From Chryseobacterium vrystaatense (GTDB lineage: Bacteria > Bacteroidota > Bacteroidia > Flavobacteriales > Weeksellaceae): 64,000 nucleotides of DNA. Under the pieces are notes generated by a model, which saw only the letters and a list, made by a program, of their open reading frames with translations, made no database searches and had not been told where the DNA came from. The stretch spans positions 310,001-374,000 of the forward strand of contig NZ_JPRI01000002.1 in the NCBI RefSeq assembly GCF_000737765.1, in the 5' to 3' direction. Shown here piece by piece: positions 19,715 through 31,510 of the stretch (position 1 is its first letter; each line of letters starts with the position of its first letter). Made by a program: the position numbers and the translations under genes.

Positions 19715-20116
19715 TCAAATGATAAGTTTGCGGTATTGTATGAAGATGGGAACCGTAATTCCAATTTTGGAAGTACTGTAAAATGGATGTTCTCTAAGAT
19801 TTATAAACAGAAATGCCCCTGCAAATAGAATGAATGTAAATGCAGCAAGCTCCTGAAATTCCGCCACTGAAAAATGGGTATCATTTTTAGCGGTAATTTC
19901 TCTTTCCTTGCAAAAGTTGCAGACAGAGGCCGTGGTTGTGTTGGTGGTAAATTTCTCCTTTGGTGCGGAGGTATGACTTTTAGCGGAAGGCTGCAGACTG
20001 AGTAGGTTTTTGATACCGTATTTTACAGCGCAGGAAGAAATTAAAATACATATAATGAAAAACATTGCAATAACGCTTTTCATTATATGATTGGTATTTA
20101 ATTTCTGATAAGTCAT
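19715..20116 (-). CDS. Small membrane protein with CxxC, unknown
   Basis: 133 residues from the ATG at 20116; an ATG at 20083 would start directly at the signal-like segment MKSVIAMFFIICILIS-C, which resembles a lipobox. The middle is polar and contains Cys-Asn-Phe-Cys (VCNFCKERE), and a second hydrophobic helix (AAFTFILFAGAFLFI) follows near residue 95. Proteins like this often sit upstream of Bacteroidota metal or drug efflux operons. It lies 104 bp upstream of the TolC gene on the same strand. Function unknown; a metal-sensing or chaperone role for the cysteine pair would be speculation. Confidence 0.6.
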   Translation of the reverse strand: MTYQKLNTNHIMKSVIAMFFIICILISSCAVKYGIKNLLSLQPSAKSHTSAPKEKFTTNTTTASVCNFCKEREITAKNDTHFSVAEFQELAAFTFILFAGAFLFINLREHPFYSTSKIGITVPIFIQYRKLII

Positions 20117-20180
20117 TCCTGCAAATATAAATTTTTAATTACTAAGGTCAAAAACATTAACAGAATTTATATGAAATACA

Positions 20181-20885
20181 TTATTGTGCAATCTTGTTTT
20201 TCACTTCCTGCTCTGTTGCAAAACCTAAATTATCCCAGACTAATTTATCGTTTTTATACAGCTTCAGGACCGGTAGTGCAGAAACATTCAGTTCTTTGCA
20301 GAGTTCTGTATTTGCATCTGCATCTATTCTTAAAATTTTCACCTTATCCGGCATTTCAGCAGCCATCTTTTTAAGGTAAGGCTCCATCTTTTTGCAGGGA
20401 GCGCACCATTCTGCATAAAAATCCACCAGAACGGGAGTATTGCTTTTCAACATTTCCTTATACTGGGCAAGACTAATTCCTGTAGCAGTTGATGCTTTGA
20501 TCTCCGGAAGCTCAGCGTTCCTCCACTTCATCATTCCTCCCTGCATTTCATATACATTTTTAAAACCGATTTCCTGAAGTTTTGCAGCGGCGGCCGTACT
20601 TCTGGGTCCGCTCATACAATACACAAATACAGGTTTATCCTTATCGAGCGCTTTTGCTTTCTCTGTGAAGTCATCTGCATTCCAGTCGATGTTCATTGCA
20701 CTTTTAAGATGACCGTTACGAAATTCTCCAGGTGTTCTTACATCAACCAATTGTGCATCTTTGGTCTGGTCCAATTTTTTAGAAAATTCTTTGGCAGGAA
20801 GACTGCTCTCGCTTTTGTTACTCTGAGCTTTTCCGCATCCTGTAATTGCGATGAGAAAAAATACAACGATTAGGTTTTTATACAT
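20181..20885 (-). CDS. Rhodanese-thioredoxin fusion lipoprotein
   Basis: 234 residues. A lipoprotein signal ends at Cys17 (IAITG-C). Residues about 35-130 are a rhodanese domain with active Cys90 in FVYCMSGPRST, and residues about 135-234 are a thioredoxin with active site Cys161-Ala-Pro-Cys164 in DFYAEWCAPCKKMEP. The rhodanese would carry a persulfide and the thioredoxin would reduce it, a one-chain sulfur transfer and release unit in the periplasm. It is the last gene of the MBL-rhodanese operon, 1 bp after a second thioredoxin. Confidence 0.92.
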   Translation of the reverse strand: MYKNLIVVFFLIAITGCGKAQSNKSESSLPAKEFSKKLDQTKDAQLVDVRTPGEFRNGHLKSAMNIDWNADDFTEKAKALDKDKPVFVYCMSGPRSTAAAAKLQEIGFKNVYEMQGGMMKWRNAELPEIKASTATGISLAQYKEMLKSNTPVLVDFYAEWCAPCKKMEPYLKKMAAEMPDKVKILRIDADANTELCKELNVSALPVLKLYKNDKLVWDNLGFATEQEVKNKIAQ

Positions 20886-20886
20886 T

Positions 20887-21183
20887 TTAAAGGTTTTGCT
20901 TGATTAATCTTTCCAGTTCATCCGCCTGAAAAACACCGGATTGTTTCCATTTTACTTCTCCATTTTTCAAGATCATCAAAGTAGGAACACTTCGGATTCC
21001 GAATTGCGAGGCAACCGCCTGGTTTTTGTCGATGTCAATTTTAACAATGCTTGCTACATCACCAATATTCTTTTTGAGATCCTGAAGAATAGGCGCCTGC
21101 ATTTTGCATAGACCGCACCATTCTGCAAAGAAATCTACCAATACGGGTTTCTCCTGACTGATTAGTTCCTGAAATTTATTCAT
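20887..21183 (-). CDS. Thioredoxin (CGLC)
   Basis: 98 residues, a minimal cytoplasmic thioredoxin fold. The active site is Cys23-Gly-Leu-Cys26 in DFFAEWCGLCKMQAP, with Leu in place of the usual Pro, and the cis-Pro loop is IRSVPTLMILKNGE. The substitution shifts redox potential in known thioredoxins. It lies between a DUF2892 membrane protein and the rhodanese-thioredoxin fusion, so its partner is probably a persulfidated protein of this cluster rather than general metabolism (trxA at 31.8 kb serves that). Confidence 0.92.
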   Translation of the reverse strand: MNKFQELISQEKPVLVDFFAEWCGLCKMQAPILQDLKKNIGDVASIVKIDIDKNQAVASQFGIRSVPTLMILKNGEVKWKQSGVFQADELERLIKQNL

Positions 21184-21193
21184 TTTTCAGATT

Positions 21194-21427
21194 TTATTTG
21201 ATTTCTTCATATTCAACCTTATCCCCATTTTTTTTTGAATTTCTTGTTGGGACAGAACAGTTTCCCGCAGCACAACAGCCGATATTGAATAGTGGCATTA
21301 CAACAAAAACCATTCCGACAGCCACCAAAATCCACATTCCAGATTGTGTGGCTTCTACAACAAGGAAAATTCCCATTGCCAGACGAAGCAACCTTACAAA
21401 GTTCCAGTTTTTAAATAAATTATCCAT
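21194..21427 (-). CDS. Small inner-membrane protein, DUF2892-like
   Basis: 77 residues with two hydrophobic helices (about 12-28 and 31-47) and the sequence NIGCCAAGNCSVP after them, giving three cysteines near the membrane face. DUF2892/YgaP-type membrane pieces are often fused to or encoded beside rhodanese domains. Context in a persulfide operon supports that link. The biochemical role is unknown. Confidence 0.75.
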   Translation of the reverse strand: MDNLFKNWNFVRLLRLAMGIFLVVEATQSGMWILVAVGMVFVVMPLFNIGCCAAGNCSVPTRNSKKNGDKVEYEEIK

Positions 21428-21435
21428 ACTTTTCT

Positions 21436-22047
21436 TTATCTTTTTGTACCAAAAAAGCGTACAACCGAAGCTTTTCCTTTGTGATAAGCGCCTTCACTCA
21501 GTATGGTTTCGGAAATATATGCTTCCTGAAAATCGAAATCGGAAAAATCAGTTTTCAGTTCTTCTAAATCATAAAGCATTTCCCAATGTTTTGGTCCGCC
21601 TGCATTTGGATTTTCGTCTTGAAATTTAGAATGCTCTTTACTGAAACCTTCCAGAATAATTCCCCCACCTTTCTTCACAAGCGATGAAAACCATCTGTGC
21701 AAATCCCGCCTCAATATTTCAGGAAAATGGGCAAAAACCATTACTAAAAGGTCAAAACTTTCTTTTTTATAACCTATTGTATCTGCCGAAACCGTTGTGT
21801 AATTTATTTTCACCGAGTTTATTTCAGCAAGCTGCATCGCTTTCTTTTTGCCTTCTTCACTTTGGTCAAAAGCCTCAACTTCAAAACCCTGAATTGCCGC
21901 ATAAACAGCATTCCTACCCTCTCCTTCAGCAGGAAAAAGAGCTTTTCCGGGAGTGAGTTCAGCCAATTTTTCGGCAAAATAGATATTTGGTTGATCTCCG
22001 TACACAAAATCTGACTGGCGGTATCTTTCGTCCCAAAAATCTTTCAT
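21436..22047 (-). CDS. Class I SAM-dependent methyltransferase (TehB/thiopurine-like)
   Basis: 203 residues. The opening MKDFWDERYRQSDFVYGDQP is typical of TehB-like and related methyltransferases. The SAM-binding loop is ALFPAEGEGRNAVYAA, and post-motif I Asp-Gln is in VEAFDQSEEG. Relatives methylate small thiols, tellurite or selenite. Its start overlaps the stop of the rhodanese gene, so a sulfur-containing acceptor is plausible, though not shown by sequence. Confidence 0.88.
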   Translation of the reverse strand: MKDFWDERYRQSDFVYGDQPNIYFAEKLAELTPGKALFPAEGEGRNAVYAAIQGFEVEAFDQSEEGKKKAMQLAEINSVKINYTTVSADTIGYKKESFDLLVMVFAHFPEILRRDLHRWFSSLVKKGGGIILEGFSKEHSKFQDENPNAGGPKHWEMLYDLEELKTDFSDFDFQEAYISETILSEGAYHKGKASVVRFFGTKR

Positions 22048-22361
22048 TATTGTTCCGTTAGTTTTATCATATTCTGTACACTGCCACCGTTGAGAACATT
22101 CGTGATTCCGTTTCGTTCCAATGTTCCTTTTGCCATTGCGCTACGGTTTCCACTTCTACAGAAAACAATGATGTTTTTCTTATTCCTGAACTTGGAAATC
22201 TGGTCTTTGACGACATCCAAAGGTATATTAACAGCCCCTTCAGCACTTCCCGAAGCAAATTCTACGGGCGTTCTTACATCTACCAAAAAAGCACCTTCTC
22301 CCAACGCAGTTTCCAGCGCAGCATTGTCTTTTTTTCCGAATAACATTGATAATAAATCCAT
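22047..22361 (-). CDS. Single-domain rhodanese sulfurtransferase
   Basis: 104 residues. The rhodanese core reads AFLVDVRTPVEFASGSAEGA and the active-site loop VFCRSGNRSAMA has catalytic Cys68. No signal peptide, so cytoplasmic. It passes sulfane sulfur between persulfides and acceptors. It follows the MBL-rhodanese gene by 1 bp and overlaps the methyltransferase gene by one base. Confidence 0.93.
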   Translation of the reverse strand: MDLLSMLFGKKDNAALETALGEGAFLVDVRTPVEFASGSAEGAVNIPLDVVKDQISKFRNKKNIIVFCRSGNRSAMAKGTLERNGITNVLNGGSVQNMIKLTEQ

Positions 22362-22362
22362 C

Positions 22363-23754
22363 TTAATTTTTTACAGGGTTTGCTTTTTCTGTCCATTCTT
22401 TCATTCCGCCAGAGAAATTTTTGACGTTCTCAAAACCGTTTTTCTTCAGTAGAGAATAGGCAATTGCTGCTCTGTCGCCACTTTGACAATGAATTACAAT
22501 TGGTTTTTCATGGGAAATTTTATCCAGATTATCCTCCAAAGTTCCCACAAAGACATTCTCAGCATTCTCAATACGTCCTGCGTCATATTCGGTTTTATTT
22601 CTTACATCAACCACCTGAATATTATCTCTGTTCAGATAAGATTTGAATTCCTCAATATCAATAATATCGGCAGTCTGTAATTCTAAGTCTAAATTTTTCA
22701 CGTCATCAATATAGCCCATCATTTGATCCATCCCGATTCTCATCAGTTTTCTGTTAAGATCTTCCATTTGTTCTTCCTGAGCAACCAAAATAAACGGCTC
22801 GGAATAATTGACAATCCATCCCATCCACGTGGAAAATGAATTATTACCCTGAATATTGATGCTGTTTGGTATAAAACCTTGGGCAAAATCTACTTTATTT
22901 CTCGTGTCTATAATTTTAACTCCATTTTGATAAGCTTTCAAAAATTCTTCTTTGGAAAGTTTCGGATGTTTTGGAACTTCTTTTAATAAAGGTCTTTCCA
23001 CTTTGTTGAGTTTTTTCATCATTGCAAAATATTTTGGAGGTTCCGGCTGTCCTTCCAGCAGATATTCTACAAAACCTTCCTCATCTTCTTCATATTGAAA
23101 AGCCCAGTTTCTGATTTTTTCATAACCTACCGTTGAACTCGGAACTGCACCCAAAGCTTTTCCGCAAGCCGAACCTGCACCGTGTCCCGGCCAAACTTGG
23201 ATAAACTCCCGCAATCTGCTAAAATCCTGAACAGAATGAAACATTTCTTTCGCTCCTTTTTCCTGAGTTCCTGTAATTCCGGCCGCCTTCTCCAATAAAT
23301 CTGGTCTTCCTATATCTCCCACAAAAACAAAATCTCCTGTAAAAATCATCACCGGTTCGTCCGTTGCAGGATGATCGGTCAATAAAAAGCTGATGCTTTC
23401 CGGCGTATGTCCCGGCGTGTGAATGACTTTTAAAGTTAAATTTCCAACTTTAATGATATCTCCATTCGTTAATCCGGTATGTGGAAACTGATATTGCCAA
23501 TCTTCACCACCTTCATCCGAAAGATACATTTTTGCACCCGTCACTTCCGCAAGTTCTCTAGAACCCGACAAAAAATCGGCGTGAATATGAGTTTCTGTAA
23601 TATGTGTAATCGTGAGATTATTTTCTTTGGCAATCTGAAGATAGGTATCGATATCTCTTTTGGCATCGATAACAATGGCTTCACCTTTTGCCTGACATCC
23701 TATTAAATAGCTAGCCTGCGCAAGGCTCTTATCATAAATATGCTGAAAAAACAT
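22363..23754 (-). CDS. MBL-fold persulfide dioxygenase-like protein with two rhodanese domains
   Basis: 463 residues. Residues 1-230 are an ETHE1-like metallo-beta-lactamase domain: ETHIHADFLSG (His56, His58, Asp60, with Phe61 where the classic motif has His), HTPGHTPESISF, FTGDFVFVGDIGRPDL and VWPGHGAGSACGKALG. Residues about 265-350 form a rhodanese domain without a catalytic Cys; residues about 360-463 form a second one with Cys423 in VIHCQSGDRAA. Such fusions oxidise glutathione or bacillithiol persulfide to sulfite and pass sulfur on. The Phe is common in this branch because the first His, not the last, is the iron ligand. First gene of a six-gene operon driven by a boxed promoter at 23796-23839. 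Confidence 0.93.
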   Translation of the reverse strand: MFFQHIYDKSLAQASYLIGCQAKGEAIVIDAKRDIDTYLQIAKENNLTITHITETHIHADFLSGSRELAEVTGAKMYLSDEGGEDWQYQFPHTGLTNGDIIKVGNLTLKVIHTPGHTPESISFLLTDHPATDEPVMIFTGDFVFVGDIGRPDLLEKAAGITGTQEKGAKEMFHSVQDFSRLREFIQVWPGHGAGSACGKALGAVPSSTVGYEKIRNWAFQYEEDEEGFVEYLLEGQPEPPKYFAMMKKLNKVERPLLKEVPKHPKLSKEEFLKAYQNGVKIIDTRNKVDFAQGFIPNSINIQGNNSFSTWMGWIVNYSEPFILVAQEEQMEDLNRKLMRIGMDQMMGYIDDVKNLDLELQTADIIDIEEFKSYLNRDNIQVVDVRNKTEYDAGRIENAENVFVGTLEDNLDKISHEKPIVIHCQSGDRAAIAYSLLKKNGFENVKNFSGGMKEWTEKANPVKN

Positions 23755-23795
23755 AATGTAATTTTTTAGGGTTATACTTTTTTAATATTATAGTA

Positions 23796-23839
23796 CAAAT
23801 TTCGGGGTTTACAAAGTGTTATACCGCTACTTTTGTTAC
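23796..23839 (-). promoter_or_regulatory. GTAAC-N4-GTAGC operator plus -7 element for the MBL-rhodanese operon
   Basis: On the minus strand GTAAC-AAAA-GTAGC (23839-23826) is followed after exactly 22 nt by GAAATTTG (23803-23796), which fits TAnnTTTG at six of its seven constrained positions counting A and TTTG. The gene starts 42 nt further on. The same geometry occurs at three other promoters of the module. Confidence 0.8.
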
Positions 23840-23853
23840 ATAAGTTAAATTTT

Positions 23854-25173
23854 TCAAAACCAATAATTCGTAATTAAATTTAACTGATTATAATTGGTCT
23901 TTTGATAGACTGCAATTGGGTTTGAGCTTTGCAGATTTCTTTTAAAAATGTAAAGCAAATCAACTTCCAGTTTATGACTGACTTTGTAAGCGACAAAGCT
24001 ATTCCATTGCAAAAAATCATCTGTATTGTACTTATTATTTTTAAAATCATTTTCGGAAACTCCGTTGCTGATGCTAAAATCTGAGTGAGCCGACCATTTT
24101 CCATGATGAAATAAGACCGAAACTTTTATAATATCAACATTTCCAAAACCTTCCAATCTGCTTCTCGGAAGCGATGTGAAAAACTGATCTCTTCCCAATT
24201 CTTTCGGAAATAAAAATCTGCCGGTATCAAATGCTTTAGAATAAGCAAACTCCAAAGCGAAATTTTTGATCTTATATCGAAACAAAAAACTTGCAACCTG
24301 ACCGTTTTCATCTGGCTGGACATATCTTTCGTAATATTTTAATCGACTTTGGTAAGAATCCGGAATCTGATAACTGTAAATCAACCCAAAATCCCATTTA
24401 GGAAAATTTAAACCCAGCTGAAACCAAGATGTATTGAGTGTTTTATCTAAATGTATGTTGTAAAAATTAATATCTGCAATTCGAAATTTTCTTCCGTAGT
24501 GAAAGATGGCAACACCTGTGCTGTTATTTTCACTGAGATAATCTGCTTTTGAGCTGTCTGGTTGAAATCCGTTATCCAATACTCCGATTGCGTCTTTCAT
24601 TTTTGACCATTCTGAATTTGAACGCATTGAAACAGAATTCAGCAATGCTACATCAACCTGTGATTTACCGGAAGTAAAATTCCAGCTCAATCCGCCATAT
24701 TCTATAGGTAACATTCTGCCGTCACTTGGATTGATAAGCGGAGAATATTTAATCGGAATTTTTCCTATCGTAAATTTTGATTTCCCTTTCTCGTATTGTA
24801 AATACAACTGATTAAGCCTTGAAACGGCATAAAGATTCTGAGGAGAAGATAAGTCAAAAAGTTCCCGTTCCCACTTGGAAGATTTTCCGGATTTCAAATC
24901 CTTTTCTTCCAAATCTGATGATGCAACTTTAGAAAGATACGAAGCAGAAACTCCAATGGAAATACGTTTTACGGGTTTGTATTCAACCTTTAAATTTCCT
25001 GCTAAAGCATCTGCCCAATAATCGGTACCTGTAAGATTGTCTGTTGACATCAAAAAGTTTCGTAGATTTCCTGAGATGATGACTTTATCACGATTATCTA
25101 AATTAACAGATTGCGTTTTAACCATTGAAAAAGCAAACACCAAAATTATTGACGTAACTTTTTTGGTATACAT
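23854..25173 (-). CDS. Outer-membrane beta-barrel protein (porin-like)
   Basis: 439 residues. A signal peptide (about 1-20) precedes a mature protein made of alternating polar/hydrophobic strands that ends in an aromatic residue (NLITNYWF), as outer-membrane barrels do. Lengths and strand pattern suggest 16-18 strands. I do not recognise a named family, although the layout recalls OprD-like or alginate-type porins. It begins 1 bp after the sulfide:quinone oxidoreductase gene, so it probably lets a sulfur compound such as thiosulfate or sulfite through the outer membrane. That substrate is an inference from context. Confidence 0.75.
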   Translation of the reverse strand: MYTKKVTSIILVFAFSMVKTQSVNLDNRDKVIISGNLRNFLMSTDNLTGTDYWADALAGNLKVEYKPVKRISIGVSASYLSKVASSDLEEKDLKSGKSSKWERELFDLSSPQNLYAVSRLNQLYLQYEKGKSKFTIGKIPIKYSPLINPSDGRMLPIEYGGLSWNFTSGKSQVDVALLNSVSMRSNSEWSKMKDAIGVLDNGFQPDSSKADYLSENNSTGVAIFHYGRKFRIADINFYNIHLDKTLNTSWFQLGLNFPKWDFGLIYSYQIPDSYQSRLKYYERYVQPDENGQVASFLFRYKIKNFALEFAYSKAFDTGRFLFPKELGRDQFFTSLPRSRLEGFGNVDIIKVSVLFHHGKWSAHSDFSISNGVSENDFKNNKYNTDDFLQWNSFVAYKVSHKLEVDLLYIFKRNLQSSNPIAVYQKTNYNQLNLITNYWF

Positions 25174-25174
25174 T

Positions 25175-26374
25175 TCAAACTTCTTTTCCTTTCAGCATTT
25201 TGTTCCAATAGAGATACGGGAGAATATATTTCTTGAGAATCCAAAGTCTCCAATGCTCTTTTGAACTGTCTGAAATGAGCATCTTTTTGAGATTCGGGTC
25301 TGGTGTGAACTCATTTTTATAGTTAAATTCTGCCAAAACCATTTTTCCGTAACCTGTTACAAGCGGGCACGAAGAATATCCATTATAAGATTTGTTATCT
25401 GGTTTTGCACCTAAAATCATATTGATGAGATTAGAAACCACTACAGGAACTTGTTTTCGAATTGCAGCACCAGTTTTTGCAGTTGGAAGTCCGGCTACAT
25501 CTCCTACTCCGAAAATATTTTGAAATTTATTGTGCTGAAGACTGTTAATATCAACATCAAGCCAGCCTGCCTCATTAGCTAAAACTGAATTTTTAATAAA
25601 ACGTGGAGCTTCCTGTGGCGGCGCAAGATGAAGAAAATTAAACGGAATCTCAACAATACGATCTTCGTTTTTGAAATAGGCAATTTTATTCACCGGGTCA
25701 ATCTTAAAAAGTCCGTGCAGTGTTTTTAAATCGATATGGTAACGGTAAATGACTTTCATCAACGTTTCAGCGACTTCTTTTACGCCAAAAATAACACCAC
25801 CGGGAAGCGCAAAAGTAATTTTTACCTTATCTGAAATACCTTTTCTCCTAAAATAATCTGCGGCAAGATACATTATCTTTTGCGGCGCGCCTCCACATTT
25901 GATGGGCGTTGTAGGCAAAGTGAACAGCGCATTTCCTCCTTTAAAGCTCTGAAGAGATTTCCACGTAAACTCGGGATCTATATAGTTACTGCAAACAATA
26001 CCCGTTTTCACCGCCTCTTCTAAACCTTCTACCAGAGAAAGATTATTCACCAGCCCAGGTGCAACCACGAGATATTCGTAAGAATAACTCGTGCCATTAT
26101 CTGCAGAAATCTTGTTTTGTTCGGGATGAATTTCTGTAACCTTGTTTTTAAGCCAGGTTACACCATTGGGAATTAAATCTTTTGTCTGTCTTGCTGTGTC
26201 TTTAAAATCGTAAGTTCCAGCTCCTACGAGAGTCCACGCTGGTTGGTAATAATGTTTCTCGGAAGGGTCTATGATGAGAACATTGAGGGATTCATTGGTA
26301 TTTATGAGAGAAGCAGCAGTCATAATTCCTCCTGTTCCTGCTCCGATAATGATGATTTGAAAATGATTTTCCAT
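25175..26374 (-). CDS. Sulfide:quinone oxidoreductase-type FAD protein
   Basis: 399 residues. The FAD-binding Rossmann start is IIIGAGTGGIMTAASLI, and the second FAD contact is NIFGVGDVAGLPTAKTGAAIRKQ. Three cysteines sit where SQR needs them: Cys128 (GIVCSNY), Cys160 (PIKCGGAPQK) and Cys336 (YSSCPLVTG). The 32-residue spacing of the first two equals that of Aquifex aeolicus SQR (Cys124/Cys156). SQR oxidises sulfide to polysulfide or persulfide at the membrane and reduces quinone. The persulfide product would feed the MBL dioxygenase and rhodaneses downstream. It heads a two-gene operon with the porin-like gene under the boxed promoter at 26397-26440. Confidence 0.92.
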   Translation of the reverse strand: MENHFQIIIIGAGTGGIMTAASLINTNESLNVLIIDPSEKHYYQPAWTLVGAGTYDFKDTARQTKDLIPNGVTWLKNKVTEIHPEQNKISADNGTSYSYEYLVVAPGLVNNLSLVEGLEEAVKTGIVCSNYIDPEFTWKSLQSFKGGNALFTLPTTPIKCGGAPQKIMYLAADYFRRKGISDKVKITFALPGGVIFGVKEVAETLMKVIYRYHIDLKTLHGLFKIDPVNKIAYFKNEDRIVEIPFNFLHLAPPQEAPRFIKNSVLANEAGWLDVDINSLQHNKFQNIFGVGDVAGLPTAKTGAAIRKQVPVVVSNLINMILGAKPDNKSYNGYSSCPLVTGYGKMVLAEFNYKNEFTPDPNLKKMLISDSSKEHWRLWILKKYILPYLYWNKMLKGKEV

Positions 26375-26396
26375 AGCCAGACTTTTTGATGATTTG

Positions 26397-26440
26397 TAAA
26401 GCTAAATAATCTGATAAAAACAGTAAGTAACATTTGTTAC
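26397..26440 (-). promoter_or_regulatory. GTAAC-N4-GTTAC operator plus -7 element for the SQR operon
   Basis: GTAAC-ATTT-GTTAC (26427-26440) is a perfect palindrome. After exactly 22 nt on the minus strand comes TAGCTTTA (26404-26397), one base off TAnnTTTG. The SQR start codon is 23 nt beyond, leaving a leader of roughly 15 nt. This is the most symmetric of the four boxes. Confidence 0.85.
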
Positions 26441-26534
26441 ATAAGCTAAAAACTAAGCATAAAATATAAAATAATTTAAAAATAAACTCAAAATACCTCA
26501 ATATTAACAACAGTCATCAAATAATATTGTAAAA

Positions 26535-26566
26535 AAGAGACTGATTCAAAATTGAATCAGTCTCTT
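26535..26566 (-). terminator. Terminator of the YeeE/YedE operon
   Basis: AAGAGACTGATTCAA-aa-TTGAATCAGTCTCTT is a perfect 15-bp stem, followed on the minus strand by TTTTACAATATT. It sits 26 bp after the stop of the second YeeE gene and before the SQR promoter. Confidence 0.85.
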
Positions 26567-26592
26567 ACGATTAGATTTTTACTGAAAATATA

Positions 26593-27075
26593 TTAGTGGG
26601 GCAATTTATCCCTCAAATATCCATAGACCCAAGTTCCAAAAATGGCACTCAGCAAAGTAACTCCAACAGCCAATGCACCTGTTCCAATCTGTGCGAAAAG
26701 AGGTCCCGGACAGGCACCCGTCATTGCCCAGCCAAATCCAAAAATCAGCCCGCCATAGATTTGTCCTTTGTTAAATTTCTTCGGTGTAATTGAAATCCTT
26801 TCCCCGTAAATTGTTTTGATGTTGAATTTCTTAATAATAAACACTGAAATCATTCCTGTAAGAACTGCACTACCGATTACGCCGTACATAAAAAACGACT
26901 GCAAACGGAACATCTCCTGAATCCTGAACCAGCTGATGATTTCTGCTTTTACAAATACAATCCCAAATACAATTCCTACCAAAAGGTATTTAAGATTGTA
27001 ATACCATTTGTGAGTAAGATGACTTTCGTTGGTGCAAACGCTGTCCTGATGACGTATATCTTTTTCTGTTGCCAT
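26593..27075 (-). CDS. YeeE/YedE-type sulfur transporter, C-terminal half protein
   Basis: 160 residues with four hydrophobic helices (about 28-45, 55-76, 100-120, 128-150). The signature GWAMTGACPGPLFAQIG carries the conserved cysteine that lines the thiosulfate path in YeeE/TsuA. In many Bacteroidota the transporter is split into two short genes, and the partner lies 11 bp upstream. Together they should import thiosulfate or a related sulfane compound across the inner membrane. A soluble N-terminal tail of about 25 residues precedes the first helix. Confidence 0.9.
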   Translation of the reverse strand: MATEKDIRHQDSVCTNESHLTHKWYYNLKYLLVGIVFGIVFVKAEIISWFRIQEMFRLQSFFMYGVIGSAVLTGMISVFIIKKFNIKTIYGERISITPKKFNKGQIYGGLIFGFGWAMTGACPGPLFAQIGTGALAVGVTLLSAIFGTWVYGYLRDKLPH

Positions 27076-27086
27076 ATTTTTTTAAA

Positions 27087-27650
27087 TTAAAGTGAAAGAA
27101 TTATCGGCAAAATCACGTTCGCCATTAGAAAACCTCCTGCCATAAAGCATATTGTGGCAATAAGTGATGGTAACTGCAAATTTGCCAATCCCATAATGGC
27201 GTGTCCACTGGTACAACCACCTGCATAACGGGTTCCGAAACCTACCAAAAATCCACCGACAACCATAGTAATGAAACCTTTTATCGTTAAAAGACTCGCA
27301 AAATTCATCAATTGAGCAGGAACGAGATTGCTGTAATCGGTAATTCCGTAGGTTGCAAGTTCGGCTTTCAGATTCGGATTAATCGATAATTCTCCAGGAT
27401 TCATAAGGAATTGAGATGCGACAACTCCACCGAGCAAAATCCCAAAAACGAAAAACAAATTCCAGAGTTCTTTTTTCCAGTCGTATTTGAAAAAAATAAT
27501 GTTGGCTGGAATACACGCTGCGCAAATATGCCTTAAAGATGAACTGATTCCAAAAGATTTGTTACCCAGTATCAGCAAAGCCGGAACTGTAAGCCCTATT
27601 AACGGACCCGCAATATACCACGGCCAGGGTTGTTTTATAACTTCTATCAT
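27087..27650 (-). CDS. YeeE/YedE-type sulfur transporter, N-terminal half protein
   Basis: 187 residues with about five hydrophobic helices. The family motif is GFGTRYAGGCTSGHAIMGLA, with the conserved Cys in GGCTSGH. It forms with the neighbouring 160-residue protein a complete YeeE-like channel. Its promoter carries the box at 27697-27710 and a perfect -7 element TATTTTTG at 27667-27674, so it belongs to the Crp/Fnr-linked regulon. Confidence 0.92.
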   Translation of the reverse strand: MIEVIKQPWPWYIAGPLIGLTVPALLILGNKSFGISSSLRHICAACIPANIIFFKYDWKKELWNLFFVFGILLGGVVASQFLMNPGELSINPNLKAELATYGITDYSNLVPAQLMNFASLLTIKGFITMVVGGFLVGFGTRYAGGCTSGHAIMGLANLQLPSLIATICFMAGGFLMANVILPIILSL

Positions 27651-27666
27651 TTTAATTAATTTATTT

Positions 27667-27710
27667 CAAAAATATATGTTTAAGATTACATATACGGTTA
27701 CTTTTGTTAC
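27667..27710 (-). promoter_or_regulatory. GTAAC-N4-GTAAC operator plus perfect -7 element for the YeeE/YedE operon
   Basis: On the minus strand GTAAC-AAAA-GTAAC (27710-27697) is followed after exactly 22 nt by TATTTTTG (27674-27667), a full match to the Bacteroidota -7 consensus TAnnTTTG. The start codon is 17 nt beyond the element. Confidence 0.85.
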
Positions 27711-27846
27711 AGAGCAGTTTATTTCTCTTTTCTAAAATACAAAATAGATTTTTCGAATAAAAATAACTGAATTCTTTTATTGAGAATCAGCGAACCTGGA
27801 TGCAATAATTTTCCGACAAACTCACGCTGCAAAAGATGCTCAAAAG

Positions 27847-28641
27847 CTACATTAAAAGCTCTCTTACAATAATGTAAATTCCCATTATTAAGATGAACCA
27901 GCCGAAAGCAGGTTTGAGTTTTCTACCGTCTATTTTTTTTGACAATTGTGCTCCTATAATAATCCCCACTATGGAAATGGATGAGACCGTTGCAAGTAGT
28001 TTCCAGTTGATCGGGACGTTGTGCATTGAAGTGAAAAATCCGATAAGGGAATTCAGGGAAATGATGACAAGCGAGGTACCGATGGCTACCTTCATTGGTG
28101 TCTTGAGCAAATTGACGAGTGCAGGAATAATCATAAAGCCACCACCCGCACCGACCAAACCAGTAAGCACCCCGACAACCGACCCTTGCCCTGCTGCCAA
28201 AAGATTGTTATTTTTATTAAAATGAATCGATTCTATCTGCGGCGCTACTCTACTTTGAATCATTTTGTACGATGCGAGAATCATTAATAATGCAAAAATC
28301 AGAAGTAATAAGATATCTTTGGTAACCACTAAAGTACTGATTGTAAGAACTTCATCAGGAATCAGTGGCAAAATAAAATTTCTGGTCAAAAAAATAGATA
28401 TTATTGACGGGACACCAAAAACCAAAGCTGTTTTTATATTAACCAGCCCTTTCTTAAAGTAGGAAAATGAACCTACCACACTGCTGATTCCAACTATGAA
28501 AAGTGAATATTCTGTGGCTACGAAGGCATCTATACCAAAGAGATATACTAAGACAGGCACAGTAAGAATACTTCCCCCTCCTCCTATCAGCCCTAAGGAA
28601 ATACCAATAAATATTGCGGCAATGTATCCGAAAATTTCCAT
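27847..28641 (-). CDS. TauE/SafE-family sulfite/anion exporter
   Basis: 264 residues from the ATG at 28641. A TTG at 28662 would extend the frame, but it lies inside the -7 element and is rejected. Eight hydrophobic helices come in two homologous halves; the glycine-rich family repeats are GISLGLIGGGGSILTVPVLVYL and GVLTGLVGAGGGFMIIPALVNL (both seen in part). TauE/SafE proteins export sulfite or other sulfonates. Here export of sulfite made by the persulfide dioxygenase is the obvious role. It is the first gene downstream of the Crp/Fnr-type regulator, with its own boxed promoter in the 73-bp gap. Confidence 0.93.
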   Translation of the reverse strand: MEIFGYIAAIFIGISLGLIGGGGSILTVPVLVYLFGIDAFVATEYSLFIVGISSVVGSFSYFKKGLVNIKTALVFGVPSIISIFLTRNFILPLIPDEVLTISTLVVTKDILLLLIFALLMILASYKMIQSRVAPQIESIHFNKNNNLLAAGQGSVVGVLTGLVGAGGGFMIIPALVNLLKTPMKVAIGTSLVIISLNSLIGFFTSMHNVPINWKLLATVSSISIVGIIIGAQLSKKIDGRKLKPAFGWFILIMGIYIIVRELLM

Positions 28642-28659
28642 CTCTTTAATTTTATATGA

Positions 28660-28703
28660 CAAAAATGGATATTTCTATTTTACTGCACCGCTACTTTTGT
28701 TAC
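28660..28703 (-). promoter_or_regulatory. GTAAC-N4-GTAGC operator plus -7 element for the TauE/SafE gene
   Basis: On the minus strand GTAAC-AAAA-GTAGC (28703-28690) is followed after exactly 22 nt by CATTTTTG (28667-28660), one base off TAnnTTTG. The ATG at 28641 is 19 nt beyond. The box is 12 bp downstream of the regulator gene's stop codon. Confidence 0.82.
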
Positions 28704-28714
28704 ATAAGAAAATT

Positions 28715-29347
28715 TTAGTTCAGATCTGAAAAAATAATTTTGTTTCTTCCCAATTTCACTTTTCCAGAATCTTCCAATTGCTTTAGAAGTCGGGAAACAA
28801 CAACTCTTACTGTTCCAAGTTCATTCGCAAGCTGCTCGTGAGTAACGACTATAGTATTTGAATTTGCTATTTCTGCTTTTTTAGTAAGAAGATTTAGTAG
28901 TCGCTCATCTACCTTTTTAAAAGCTATAGCATTAATAATATCCAGTAATTCTTCAAAGCGTTTGTGATATAGTCTGAAAATATAGTCCAGCCATTCCGGA
29001 TATTCTTTGATAAAGAGCGAAACCTTTTCTACAGGTAAGAAAAGTATCTCGGAATCTTCTTCAACTTCTGCCTTTACAATACTCTTTTCATTATGCATTC
29101 CACCAAGAAAAGACATAATGCAGCTTTCACCTGCTTTAATATAGTATAATAATATTTCTCTTCCATCTTCTTCCGTTCGTATTACTTTCAACAATCCCTT
29201 CATTACAATTGGTATAGATCGGATCGAAGCATTTTCATCTAAAATGATTTCACCTTCCCGGTAGGTTTTTATATTACCATTTTGGTAAAGCTTATCAAGT
29301 AATTCCTGTGAAGAAATGACATCGGAAGAAAATTCAGTATGTTCCAT
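28715..29347 (-). CDS. Crp/Fnr-family transcriptional regulator of the sulfur module
   Basis: 210 residues. Residues about 20-130 form a cyclic-nucleotide-binding-like beta-roll (YREGEIILDENASIR, GLLKVIRTEEDGREILLYYI). Residues about 145-207 form a winged helix with HTH 169-195 (HEQLANELGTVRVVVSRLLK). The recognition helix has Val where Crp and Fnr use Glu (VRVVVSR versus SRExxxR), which predicts a half-site other than TGTGA or TTGAT. There is a single Cys (Cys76), so no Fnr-type iron-sulfur cluster; Cys76 might instead sense sulfane sulfur. Four boxed promoters nearby are the likely targets. Its own upstream DNA has a direct repeat ATTTCTTCT (about 29357 and 29377) but no GTAAC box. Confidence 0.9.
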   Translation of the reverse strand: MEHTEFSSDVISSQELLDKLYQNGNIKTYREGEIILDENASIRSIPIVMKGLLKVIRTEEDGREILLYYIKAGESCIMSFLGGMHNEKSIVKAEVEEDSEILFLPVEKVSLFIKEYPEWLDYIFRLYHKRFEELLDIINAIAFKKVDERLLNLLTKKAEIANSNTIVVTHEQLANELGTVRVVVSRLLKQLEDSGKVKLGRNKIIFSDLN

Positions 29348-29471
29348 TGCAAAAATATTTCTTCTAATATAATATATTTCTTCTGAATATAAACCGTCAA
29401 TATGTAACCTAGAACATTTTATTTTGTTGCAAATTGCTAATAGATAAAAAATCTATTTCAAACTTAATTTG

Positions 29472-29479
29472 TAAATTTG
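29472..29479 (+). promoter_or_regulatory. -7 element upstream of the DUF202 gene
   Basis: TAAATTTG matches TAnnTTTG fully and lies 45 bp before the DUF202 start. I see no -33 TTG at the standard spacing, so strength is unclear. Confidence 0.45.
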
Positions 29480-29523
29480 GTATTGTTAGCTATTGTAGGC
29501 ATAAGATAAATTTTGAATAAGAT

Positions 29524-29904
29524 ATGAATAAAGATAAACCAAATCATACCAGTGAACATTTGGCAAATGAAAGAACATTTCTTGCGTGGATGCGAACATC
29601 GATAGCATTGATGGGTTTCGGATTCATACTAGTTAAATTTTCCCTATTTCTTAAGCAGATACCTTTAGTTGCAGAAGCTAAAAACACAGTGCACGCTCAA
29701 AATGGACATTCCAGTCTTGTAGGGATTGTAATTGTCATTGTTGGAGCTATAGTTTTATTATTTTCATATATTAATTACTACAATAACAAAAAACGTATTA
29801 ATAATAATACATTTTACGAGAACAACATTTTCTTGCTCATAGTCACCACTGTTTTATTTTTGCTGAGCATTTTTTTAATACATTACTTATTAAATAACAT
29901 ATAA
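29524..29904 (+). CDS. DUF202 (YidH-like) membrane protein
   Basis: 126 residues. The DUF202 opening HLANERTFLAWMRTSIALMGFG is present (seen in part), with three hydrophobic helices at about 25-45, 62-82 and 100-122. Proteins of this family are small inner-membrane proteins without an assigned function. It is the only rightward gene between the sulfur module and the integrase, and may be cargo of the same integrated element. Confidence 0.88.
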   Translation: MNKDKPNHTSEHLANERTFLAWMRTSIALMGFGFILVKFSLFLKQIPLVAEAKNTVHAQNGHSSLVGIVIVIVGAIVLLFSYINYYNNKKRINNNTFYENNIFLLIVTTVLFLLSIFLIHYLLNNI

Positions 29905-30083
29905 ATGATACTCACAGATTTCAATTAATTAGCTATTATAAATCAATAAAAATCGAAAGAGTGTTTCACATAGATGATGGGAAAACGCAGTCCGATTTCC
30001 TTGAAATTAAGGTTTTTTCCAGAGTTCAGTAGATAATCTTTATTATTACAATTATCAAGAATCCTTCAGCAAAAATGAGTTAC

Positions 30084-31319
30084 CTAAAAAATTACAACAA
30101 TTTCCTTATTAGTAAATTTTTGCTTCAATTCCATCATATCCTCACTGACTTTTTTATCAAGTATTTTCGCATAATGCTGTGTTGTCTTAATGCTCTTGTG
30201 ACCTAGCATTTTACTAACACTTTCAATGGAAACCCCATTAGATAAAGTTATCGTTGTTGCAAAGGTATGTCGTGCAATATGATAGGTCAATTCTTTGTTA
30301 ATTCCGCACAGGTCGGCAATCTCCTTAAGATATGCATTCATCTTTTGATTACTCAGAATAGGCAGCAACTTTCCATTATTAAGACATACTGGATGATTTT
30401 TGTATTTTTCAATAATTTTCTCTGTTTGAGAAAGTAAGGGAATATTAGAAGTAGTTTTAGTTTTCTGACGTTTTGTATAAATCCATTGAGAGCCATCAAG
30501 TCCCAAATTGATATTTTGATATGTTAGTTTTTGAGTATCAATGTACGCTAGTCCGGTGAAACAGCTGAACAGAAAAATATCTCTTACCAAAGACAATCTC
30601 TCATTTTTAAAATCTTTGGCAAAAAGTACTTCTATCTCCTTTTCATTAAGGAACATTCTTGTCACTTCATTAAACTTAGAATGATAGTTCATAAAAGGAT
30701 CTCTTTCCATCCATCCATTTGCAAGACAGATACGTATAATCTTACCAAAATTCTTGATATATTTTACTGCAGAATTATTATTACAGGATCTTTCAGTCCT
30801 TAAAAAAAATTCAAAATCGTTTAGAAAAGCATAATCGATCTTTTTTATTTCAATGTCGGTAATACTATATTTCCATTTCAAAAAATCTTTGGTATGTTTC
30901 AGACAGGTCTTATAACGGGTTAACGTTCCTTGGGCAAATTCTTTGTCTATAAGTTTCTCCATTCGATCATTATGATCCTGAAAAACGGGAATGAGTGTTC
31001 GGGTTATTCTACCTCTACCTACTAACTTATTCTTAATAGCCTCAGAAGTTACGGCTTCCTTATCTCTGATTAATTCGTGATAGGTATCGTAAACTTTTTG
31101 CTCAAATGTTTTCAAATAATAATTAAGGGATCTGCATTCTTCCGAAGAGCCACTAACCTTCTGCATTGCAGAATTCCATTTCGTAGGCTTTACTGTACGC
31201 TTTGTGCTTATTTCGGTTATTTTGCCGTCGATGGTAATCCGCAAATAAATAGGAGACTCTCCTACAGAATTGATTTTCGATTTCTTCACATAGAAAAGTA
31301 AATTGAATGTCTTGTTCAT
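30084..31319 (-). CDS. Tyrosine recombinase / site-specific integrase
   Basis: 411 residues. The N-terminal arm-binding domain (residues 1-90, SPIYLRITIDGKITEIST) is of the kind found in Bacteroidota mobile-element integrases, followed by a SAM-like core-binding domain (about 105-205) and the catalytic domain. The HxxR box is HIARHTFATTI and the nucleophile is Tyr in GHKSIKTTQHYAKI. The region of the first catalytic Arg reads FTGLAYIDTQKL, with Ala in place of Arg, as in much of this subfamily. It is encoded 248 bp from the 3' end of tRNA-Asp, pointing away from it, the usual arrangement after integration into a tRNA gene. Confidence 0.92.
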   Translation of the reverse strand: MNKTFNLLFYVKKSKINSVGESPIYLRITIDGKITEISTKRTVKPTKWNSAMQKVSGSSEECRSLNYYLKTFEQKVYDTYHELIRDKEAVTSEAIKNKLVGRGRITRTLIPVFQDHNDRMEKLIDKEFAQGTLTRYKTCLKHTKDFLKWKYSITDIEIKKIDYAFLNDFEFFLRTERSCNNNSAVKYIKNFGKIIRICLANGWMERDPFMNYHSKFNEVTRMFLNEKEIEVLFAKDFKNERLSLVRDIFLFSCFTGLAYIDTQKLTYQNINLGLDGSQWIYTKRQKTKTTSNIPLLSQTEKIIEKYKNHPVCLNNGKLLPILSNQKMNAYLKEIADLCGINKELTYHIARHTFATTITLSNGVSIESVSKMLGHKSIKTTQHYAKILDKKVSEDMMELKQKFTNKEIVVIF

Positions 31320-31510
31320 ATCGTTTAGCTTTTGAGATTTAAAATTAACCTTAGTAAAAACTTAACACAAGATGTTCAGTTGCTGAACCAGCTGCTGAAA
31401 AGGGTTTGTCTGAATTTCCAGTGACCTTTTTAACCTATTTCAACAGGTCACTGAATAGGTCACTTTCAGATTATGCTTTTTTAGTTCTCTTTGAACAGAC
31501 ATAAAACAAA

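Follow-up and report, generated by a model that had tools for sequence, protein, structure and literature searches.

What does a transcriptional regulator with a single cysteine control when it is encoded beside genes for sulfide and persulfide handling, and what signal might it read? The question is raised by a 64,000-nucleotide stretch of Chryseobacterium vrystaatense DNA (assembly GCF_000737765.1, contig NZ_JPRI01000002.1, positions 310,001 to 374,000; hereafter the window, with positions counted from its first letter). Its gene crp encodes P0001, a Crp/Fnr-type protein, next to genes resembling a TauE/SafE exporter (tauE), paired YeeE/YedE half-transporters (yeeEa, yeeEb), a sulfide:quinone reductase (sqr) and a persulfide dioxygenase-rhodanese (pdo). 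P0001 is very probably a class II activator of this neighbouring sulfide/persulfide module. That thiol chemistry at its only cysteine, Cys76, provides the signal is a more tentative proposal, to which we give somewhat less than an even chance. For the two together we estimate a probability of roughly 0.36.

A Crp/Fnr protein with one cysteine

28715..29347, minus strand: crp, encoding the 210-residue Crp/Fnr-type regulator P0001 (open reading frame and translation, Pfam, Foldseek)
29120..29122, minus strand: codon of Cys76, in the sensor beta-roll region (translation and homologue alignments)
28790..28810, minus strand: recognition-helix motif V180-R-V182-V-V-S-R186, with Val182 at the position of CRP Glu181 (translation, alignment, covariation)

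P0001 is a member of the Crp/Fnr superfamily by its beta-roll and C-terminal Crp helix-turn-helix (HTH). The Pfam domains cNMP_binding (PF00027, residues 27-115) and HTH_Crp_2 (PF13545, residues 149-209) both match above cut-off, and the best Foldseek matches of its structure model are Crp/Fnr proteins, with E values as low as 1e-14 and TM-scores of about 0.5. The model has a mean pLDDT of 70.8, falling below 50 at residues 79-87, so that confidence is low near Cys76, and we take its support to be limited to the fold. The translation contains one cysteine and lacks the cluster cysteines of Fnr, as the sequence-only reading of this locus had stated; because there is a single cysteine, an Fnr-type [4Fe-4S] cluster motif is impossible. 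Against the NCBIfam CRP model the protein scores 53 bits, where the cut-off is 266. The cAMP contacts of the CRP type are given as Gly71, Glu72 and Arg82 (PMC4868304), and residue 77 or 74 of P0001, depending on the alignment, could pair with Glu72. A second copy of P0001 in the genome, 80% identical, adjoins another yeeE pair; a further relative, the third protein of this kind (32% identical), lies without recognised sulfur neighbours.

Four boxes at a predicted class II position

Exact TGTAACAAAWGTWRC sites occur exactly four times in the window, all on the minus strand and upstream of tauE, yeeEa, sqr and pdo. Genome-wide there are six, the other two lying by the second regulator copy and in a glutamine synthetase gene. 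The window sites and their predicted promoter elements are as follows.

28690..28704, minus strand: box TGTAACAAAAGTAGC upstream of tauE, with a predicted centre at -41.5 (sequence, box matrix)
28660..28667, minus strand: -7 element CATTTTTG of the tauE promoter (sequence, spacing)
27697..27711, minus strand: box TGTAACAAAAGTAAC upstream of yeeEa (sequence)
27667..27674, minus strand: -7 element TATTTTTG of the yeeEa promoter (sequence)
26427..26441, minus strand: palindromic box TGTAACAAATGTTAC upstream of the sulfide:quinone reductase-like gene (sequence)
26397..26404, minus strand: weak -7-like element TAGCTTTA of the sqr promoter (sequence)
23826..23840, minus strand: box TGTAACAAAAGTAGC upstream of pdo (sequence)
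23796..23803, minus strand: weak -7 element GAAATTTG of the pdo promoter (sequence)

In class II promoters of CRP and FNR the regulator site is centred at -41.5. Of the 161 boxes collected here, 157 have the TTTG of a -7 element ending 30 nt beyond the 14-nt core. The -7 element of Flavobacterium johnsoniae is reported as T-12 A-11 T-8 T-7 T-6 G-5; since this places the final G at -5, the 30-nt spacing would make the core span -48 to -35 with its centre at -41.5 (PMC6847099). With the start so predicted, the boxes have both the position and the constant spacing to the core promoter that characterise a class II activator. T-12 is replaced by C or G in the promoters of 154 of the 161 boxes, and these promoters therefore look weak and activator-dependent. 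Elsewhere in the phylum, TTTG ends at 29-31 nt in 33/62 and 24/36 sites, with control offsets for the first of these sets giving 1.4%. The box consensus is non-palindromic, with a far half TGTAAC and a promoter-side half GTAGC.

When upstream regions from 80 further loci (L038-L117) were scored, boxes above 12 bits were found at all 77 tauE genes, at 75 of 78 pdo homologues and at 9 of 80 yeeEa genes; the best score among 322 shuffled regions was 6.5 bits. At sqr (0/2, each exceeding the 99% shuffle level) and at a DUF2892-like gene (0/5) no box passed 12 bits. The same was true of crp itself in all 80 loci, one of them above the 99% shuffle level, which agrees with the earlier claim that the regulator's own promoter lacks the box. 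Among more divergent regulators, those below 49% identity do include some with boxes upstream of crp (for example L183, L195 and L198).

The sequence-only reading also described a direct repeat in place of the box before crp. The repeat is there, AGAAGAAATAT occurring twice with a period of 19, but its conservation is not: of the 80 other loci, one (L038, near-identical) has the exact pair, and even L039-L041, with regulators 97-98% identical, no longer show it intact. When the stretch upstream of crp was resampled 1000 times with a first-order Markov model, 45 resamplings held a repeat as long. We therefore rejected it as a conserved crp operator and regard it as private to the strain. The genomic site at C1:515523 was likewise set aside as a new target, as it sits within the coding region of glutamine synthetase type III and five other genomes have the same site and the same peptide there.

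Linkage and co-occurrence

A sulfur-gene homologue adjoins the regulator in 79 of the 80 loci, the exception (L057) stopping at a contig end, and the assignment of the regulator to a sulfur module in the sequence-only reading thus holds. Throughout, a gene counted as a sulfur gene solely by its resemblance to a window protein, so that others may have escaped. Among divergent Bacteroidota, a homologue lies within 4.5 kb in 56/70 loci at 49% identity or more, in 55/78 below 49%, and in 0/20 loci of a core paralogue. Neighbours in 37 first-set loci at 49% identity or above, two of them unresolved, include OsmC (18), thioredoxin (14), DUF2892-like proteins (11) and a Cys/Met pyridoxal phosphate enzyme (6), clusters that fit sulfur or redox stress.

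Within the genus, 36 genomes were searched, that of C. vrystaatense included; 27 have a close regulator and 9 have none. An exact TGTAACAAAAGTARC lies 14-349 nt 3' of the regulator gene in 26 of the 27, and in the last (G001) it is found on the next contig, between the end of the regulator gene and tauE. Seven of the nine genomes without a close regulator have no match to TGTAACAAAAGTARC, and the other two have one inside glutamine synthetase; none was found in 23 genomes of other genera. Co-occurrence of box and regulator gives a Fisher p of 1e-8, uncorrected for kinship. Genome G026 (L354:3064) has an unlinked box upstream of an operon for a rhodanese, a DUF2892-like protein, a thioredoxin and a rhodanese/thioredoxin protein.

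The recognition helix and the box change together

P0001 shares Val182 with 108 of 112 homologues, and lacks the glutamate of the CRP-type motif RExxxR. The VRVVVSR helix had been singled out from the translation as changed, and the changed helix matches a changed box: Val at the CRP Glu181 position pairs with GTAAC-N4-GTTAC boxes and Glu with GTGAY-N4-RTCAC. In a first set of 44 V-type and 32 E-type loci, with sites in 21 and 18 respectively, the majority base was A in 20/21 V-type against 1/18 E-type loci (Fisher 6e-9). With pattern and rule unchanged, a second set of loci (47 V-type, 26 E-type, sites in 15 and 11) gave 12/15 against 2/11, with four ties among the E-type (p 0.004), a weaker covariation than in the first. 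Loci of the first and replication sets were hand-picked from the listed matches before the boxes were seen, and comprise part of those matches. The E/V counts leave out L146 (Ala at 182), the truncated L155 was left out, and L220 and L224 were left out of the box and linkage counts.

In a 151-row tree the helix residue switches between Glu and Val at least 8 times; one of the trees built left out 16 of the 20 core-paralogue rows. Pairing on the 151-row tree, with tied loci left out, gave five supported independent helix pairs, of which 4.3 on average were concordant and 0 opposed (p 0.125). In work of Ebright from 1984, the change of CAP Glu181 to Val reportedly alters specificity at this base pair. 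Taken from sequence, the helix change of P0001 looks functional.

Conservation of Cys76

Cys76 is kept in 112/112 homologues (loci L001-L117), most of which adjoin sulfur genes, and is the sole cysteine in 108 of them; lack of conservation in orthologues, together with burial of the residue, is what the sequence-only reading had said would refute its proposal. In 100 of 100 divergent rows three sensor-domain residues are invariant, namely Cys76, Tyr68 and Gly51. The replication set has Cys76 in 71/73 rows; the column is empty in the other two (L292 and L294) from a too-late choice of start, and these were dropped. As a control, 30 of the genome's 33 cNMP-domain matches were compared. A cysteine stands in the column for three members of the clade and for one distant, poorly aligned protein, and module sulfur genes lie within about 1.5 kb only at the two sulfur-linked copies, with one other locus having a thioredoxin.

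Two related groups differ in their surroundings or their cysteines. The core paralogue (L224, L268-L287) shares the cysteine, has Glu in its helix and has no neighbours recognised as sulfur genes, L224 adjoining genes for a DUF5777 protein, a cytochrome c-like protein and YceI. Many members of the L183-L218 clade (roughly 35-45% identity) carry C-x(5)-CC (ETCAMSLTCC) in place of the single cysteine, an arrangement that could allow a disulfide or polysulfide bridge.

A proposed mechanism

We propose that a P0001 dimer would bind TGTAAC-N4-GTWRC boxes centred at -41.5 in the tauE, yeeE/yedE, sqr and pdo-rhodanese promoters, the TGTAA half-site in place of TGTGA being accounted for by Val182 in place of the canonical Glu. 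Class II activation at mostly weak -7 elements would then turn on the genes by which sulfide, thiosulfate and persulfide are exported, taken up and oxidised. The signal would reach the beta-roll that holds Cys76, where reversible thiol chemistry, by persulfidation or by oxidation with sulfane sulfur, may shift the protein to its DNA-binding state. The regulon, the box, the activator geometry and the helix switch are well supported as predictions from sequence; direct thiol sensing by Cys76 is plausible.

Several observations weigh against this proposal. The box matrix was seeded on the window sites and refined on the same sequences that it then scored. Allowing at most one mismatch gave 13 genome sites, and 16 for a reversed control pattern, so that only exact sites are meaningful and one-mismatch boxes were rejected as extra targets. 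The covariation counts are not independent, and the tree holds too few pairs for a p below 0.05. Among V-type loci, palindromic boxes occur in 5/23 from the first high-identity set and in 15/47 from the second set. The earlier suggestion that the single thiol senses sulfane sulfur gains from the constancy of Cys76 but not from any sulfur specificity: the core paralogue, without sulfur neighbours, has the residue in 20/20 loci, so that conservation alone is not proof of sulfur sensing, and an equivalent cysteine is present in PDB 3dv8 from Eubacterium rectale. Cys76 is thus a family-wide property, not tied to a sulfur role alone. Extra cysteines in the clade below 49% identity track sulfur linkage weakly (p 0.07 and 0.06) and were not used as a mark of it. 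The best-known reactive-sulfur sensors use at least two cysteines, where P0001 has one. Finally, the redox-sensing Crp/Fnr protein PgRsp of Porphyromonas gingivalis is reported to bind heme, with a spectrum unchanged by single Ala changes of Cys76, Met78 and His85 (PMC6955866).

PgRsp is the closest characterised protein to P0001, a kinship drawn from residue numbering and a shared template, and the first alternative follows from it. P0001 could be a PgRsp-type protein that senses redox state or a gas through heme bound in its sensor domain, so that heme redox state or a ligand (sulfide, NO or O2) sets DNA binding and Cys76 or Met78 contribute, neither being essential alone; we consider this unlikely, though a serious contender. 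P0001 has Cys76, Met78 and His85 at the PgRsp numbers, and its best PDB sequence match is 3dv8, the structure on which PgRsp, at 207 residues, is reported to have been modelled (PMC6955866). Among rows at 49% identity or more, Met78 is present in 69/71 and His85 in 51/71; below 49%, Met78 falls to 59/79 and His is outside the six commonest residues at position 85. The heme ligands of CooA are given as Cys75 and His77 (PMC6955866), and the GDMFCMHS segment of Rhodospirillum rubrum CooA (1ft9) lines up by eye with Cys76, but P0001 has Met for His77 and lacks a CooA-type N-terminal Pro.

We judge it just as improbable that another small ligand, such as a thiol persulfide, thiosulfate or a nucleotide, fills the pocket with Cys76 as a structural or contact residue. 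The cNMP-binding domain is recognisable, Cys76 persists family-wide even without sulfur neighbours, and Tyr68 and Gly51 are as invariant as the cysteine. Such strict constancy at this divergence would, however, be unusual for a mere contact residue, and PgRsp, used as a control, is reported not to bind the cAMP analogue 2-aza-epsilon-cAMP (PMC12040651). Least probable by far is a ligand-independent regulator that senses nothing at Cys76 and is active according to how strongly it is expressed: DNA binding by CrpPg, another Crp/Fnr protein of P. gingivalis, reportedly does not depend on ligand (PMC12040651), and that by PgRsp is reported to be unaltered by heme (PMC6955866), yet Cys76 and Tyr68 are invariant in the sensor domain, and the absence of a box before crp in 80 loci leaves no obvious self-amplification.

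Comparison with known regulators

With Escherichia coli CRP, P0001 shares the Crp fold and HTH, two flanking arginines (Arg181 and Arg186) and, by prediction, the -41.5 placement. It resembles the Glu181 variants of that protein, in which Glu to Val is said to accompany TGTGA to TGTAA, and differs from them in being natural and evolutionarily recurrent, in its predicted use of a Bacteroidota -7 promoter and in having no cAMP evidence. The direct targets reported for PgRsp are hmu, bcp and its own gene, and the main text of that paper does not use the word sulfide; PgRsp binds its own promoter, whereas no box precedes crp here (PMC6955866).

Like P0001 in its predicted role, the sulfur-responsive regulators FisR, CstR and SqrR/BigR govern genes for sulfide oxidation or sulfurtransferases. 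Known reactive-sulfur sensors include FisR, which senses through three conserved cysteines, OxyR, LasR, OhrR and CstR (PMC9774590); these, and SqrR/BigR, belong to families other than that of P0001. A Crp-like protein of Acinetobacter baumannii is persulfidated in sulfide-treated cells. It is like P0001 in its superfamily, and its cysteine is the residue modified; unlike P0001 it is close to E. coli Crp and Vfr, with the cysteine opposite the ligand pocket (PMC7315123).

Genes of the module and the surrounding island

27847..28662, minus strand: tauE, TauE/SafE-family exporter (Pfam PF01925, E 3e-43)
27087..27650, minus strand: yeeEa, YeeE/YedE (Sulf_transp) half-transporter (PF04143; weak TsuA similarity, below cut-off)
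26593..27075, minus strand: yeeEb, YeeE/YedE (Sulf_transp, DUF6691) half-transporter (Pfam)
25175..26374, minus strand: sqr, type III sulfide:quinone reductase-like flavoprotein (NF049943, E 7e-71, below the curated cut-off; PF07992)
23854..25173, minus strand: 439-residue protein between sqr and pdo, with no Pfam or NCBIfam match; porin-like in our own reading only
22363..23754, minus strand: pdo, metallo-beta-lactamase and two rhodanese domains (PF00753, PF00581 twice), a persulfide dioxygenase-rhodanese by domain make-up
22047..22361, minus strand: single-domain rhodanese (PF00581)
21436..22047, minus strand: S-adenosylmethionine methyltransferase with weak TehB similarity, below cut-off (NCBIfam)
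21194..21427, minus strand: small membrane protein, no Pfam match (open reading frame), which we take to be DUF2892-like
20887..21183, minus strand: thioredoxin (PF00085, E 1.8e-27)
20181..20885, minus strand: rhodanese-thioredoxin fusion (NCBIfam rhodanese and thioredoxin models)

Where tauE begins (28641-28662), its -7 element overlaps the TTG given as its start; the ATG at 28641, translating as MEIFGY, is likelier, and the homologue in G001 also starts MEIFGY. Divergent from crp is a gene for a DUF202 membrane protein (29524-29904), which stays beside crp in L038-L040. An island at 19717-31466, which includes a tyrosine recombinase gene (30084-31319), matches Epilithonimonas hispanica (L039) at 98.9% identity over 11.75 kb, suggesting that it moved between genera recently. 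Carriage of the island on a plasmid was considered and dropped, the search giving no plasmid match.

Implications

Our search of the open-access literature, weakened in part because the term 'Crp/Fnr' is unsearchable with its slash, found no article about a regulator of Bacteroidota sulfide or persulfide genes, no Crp/Fnr sulfane-sulfur sensor among the titles listed and no description of the activator family proposed here. In its broadest form, which we hold tentatively and think less likely than its negation, the proposal is of a large Bacteroidota family of Crp/Fnr activators in which one invariant sensor cysteine, possibly with heme, reads reactive sulfur and sqr, pdo, TauE and YeeE operons are controlled, evolution having repeatedly swapped the helix Glu and Val and rewritten operators between TGTGA and TGTAA. 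If this is true, the Glu/Val swaps would repeat in nature what the CAP Glu181 specificity mutants did in the laboratory. The helix-box switch is also a natural experiment on the joint change of a transcription factor and its operators. With a protein, a box, a promoter geometry and one candidate sensor residue in hand, sulfide sensing in Bacteroidota becomes directly testable.
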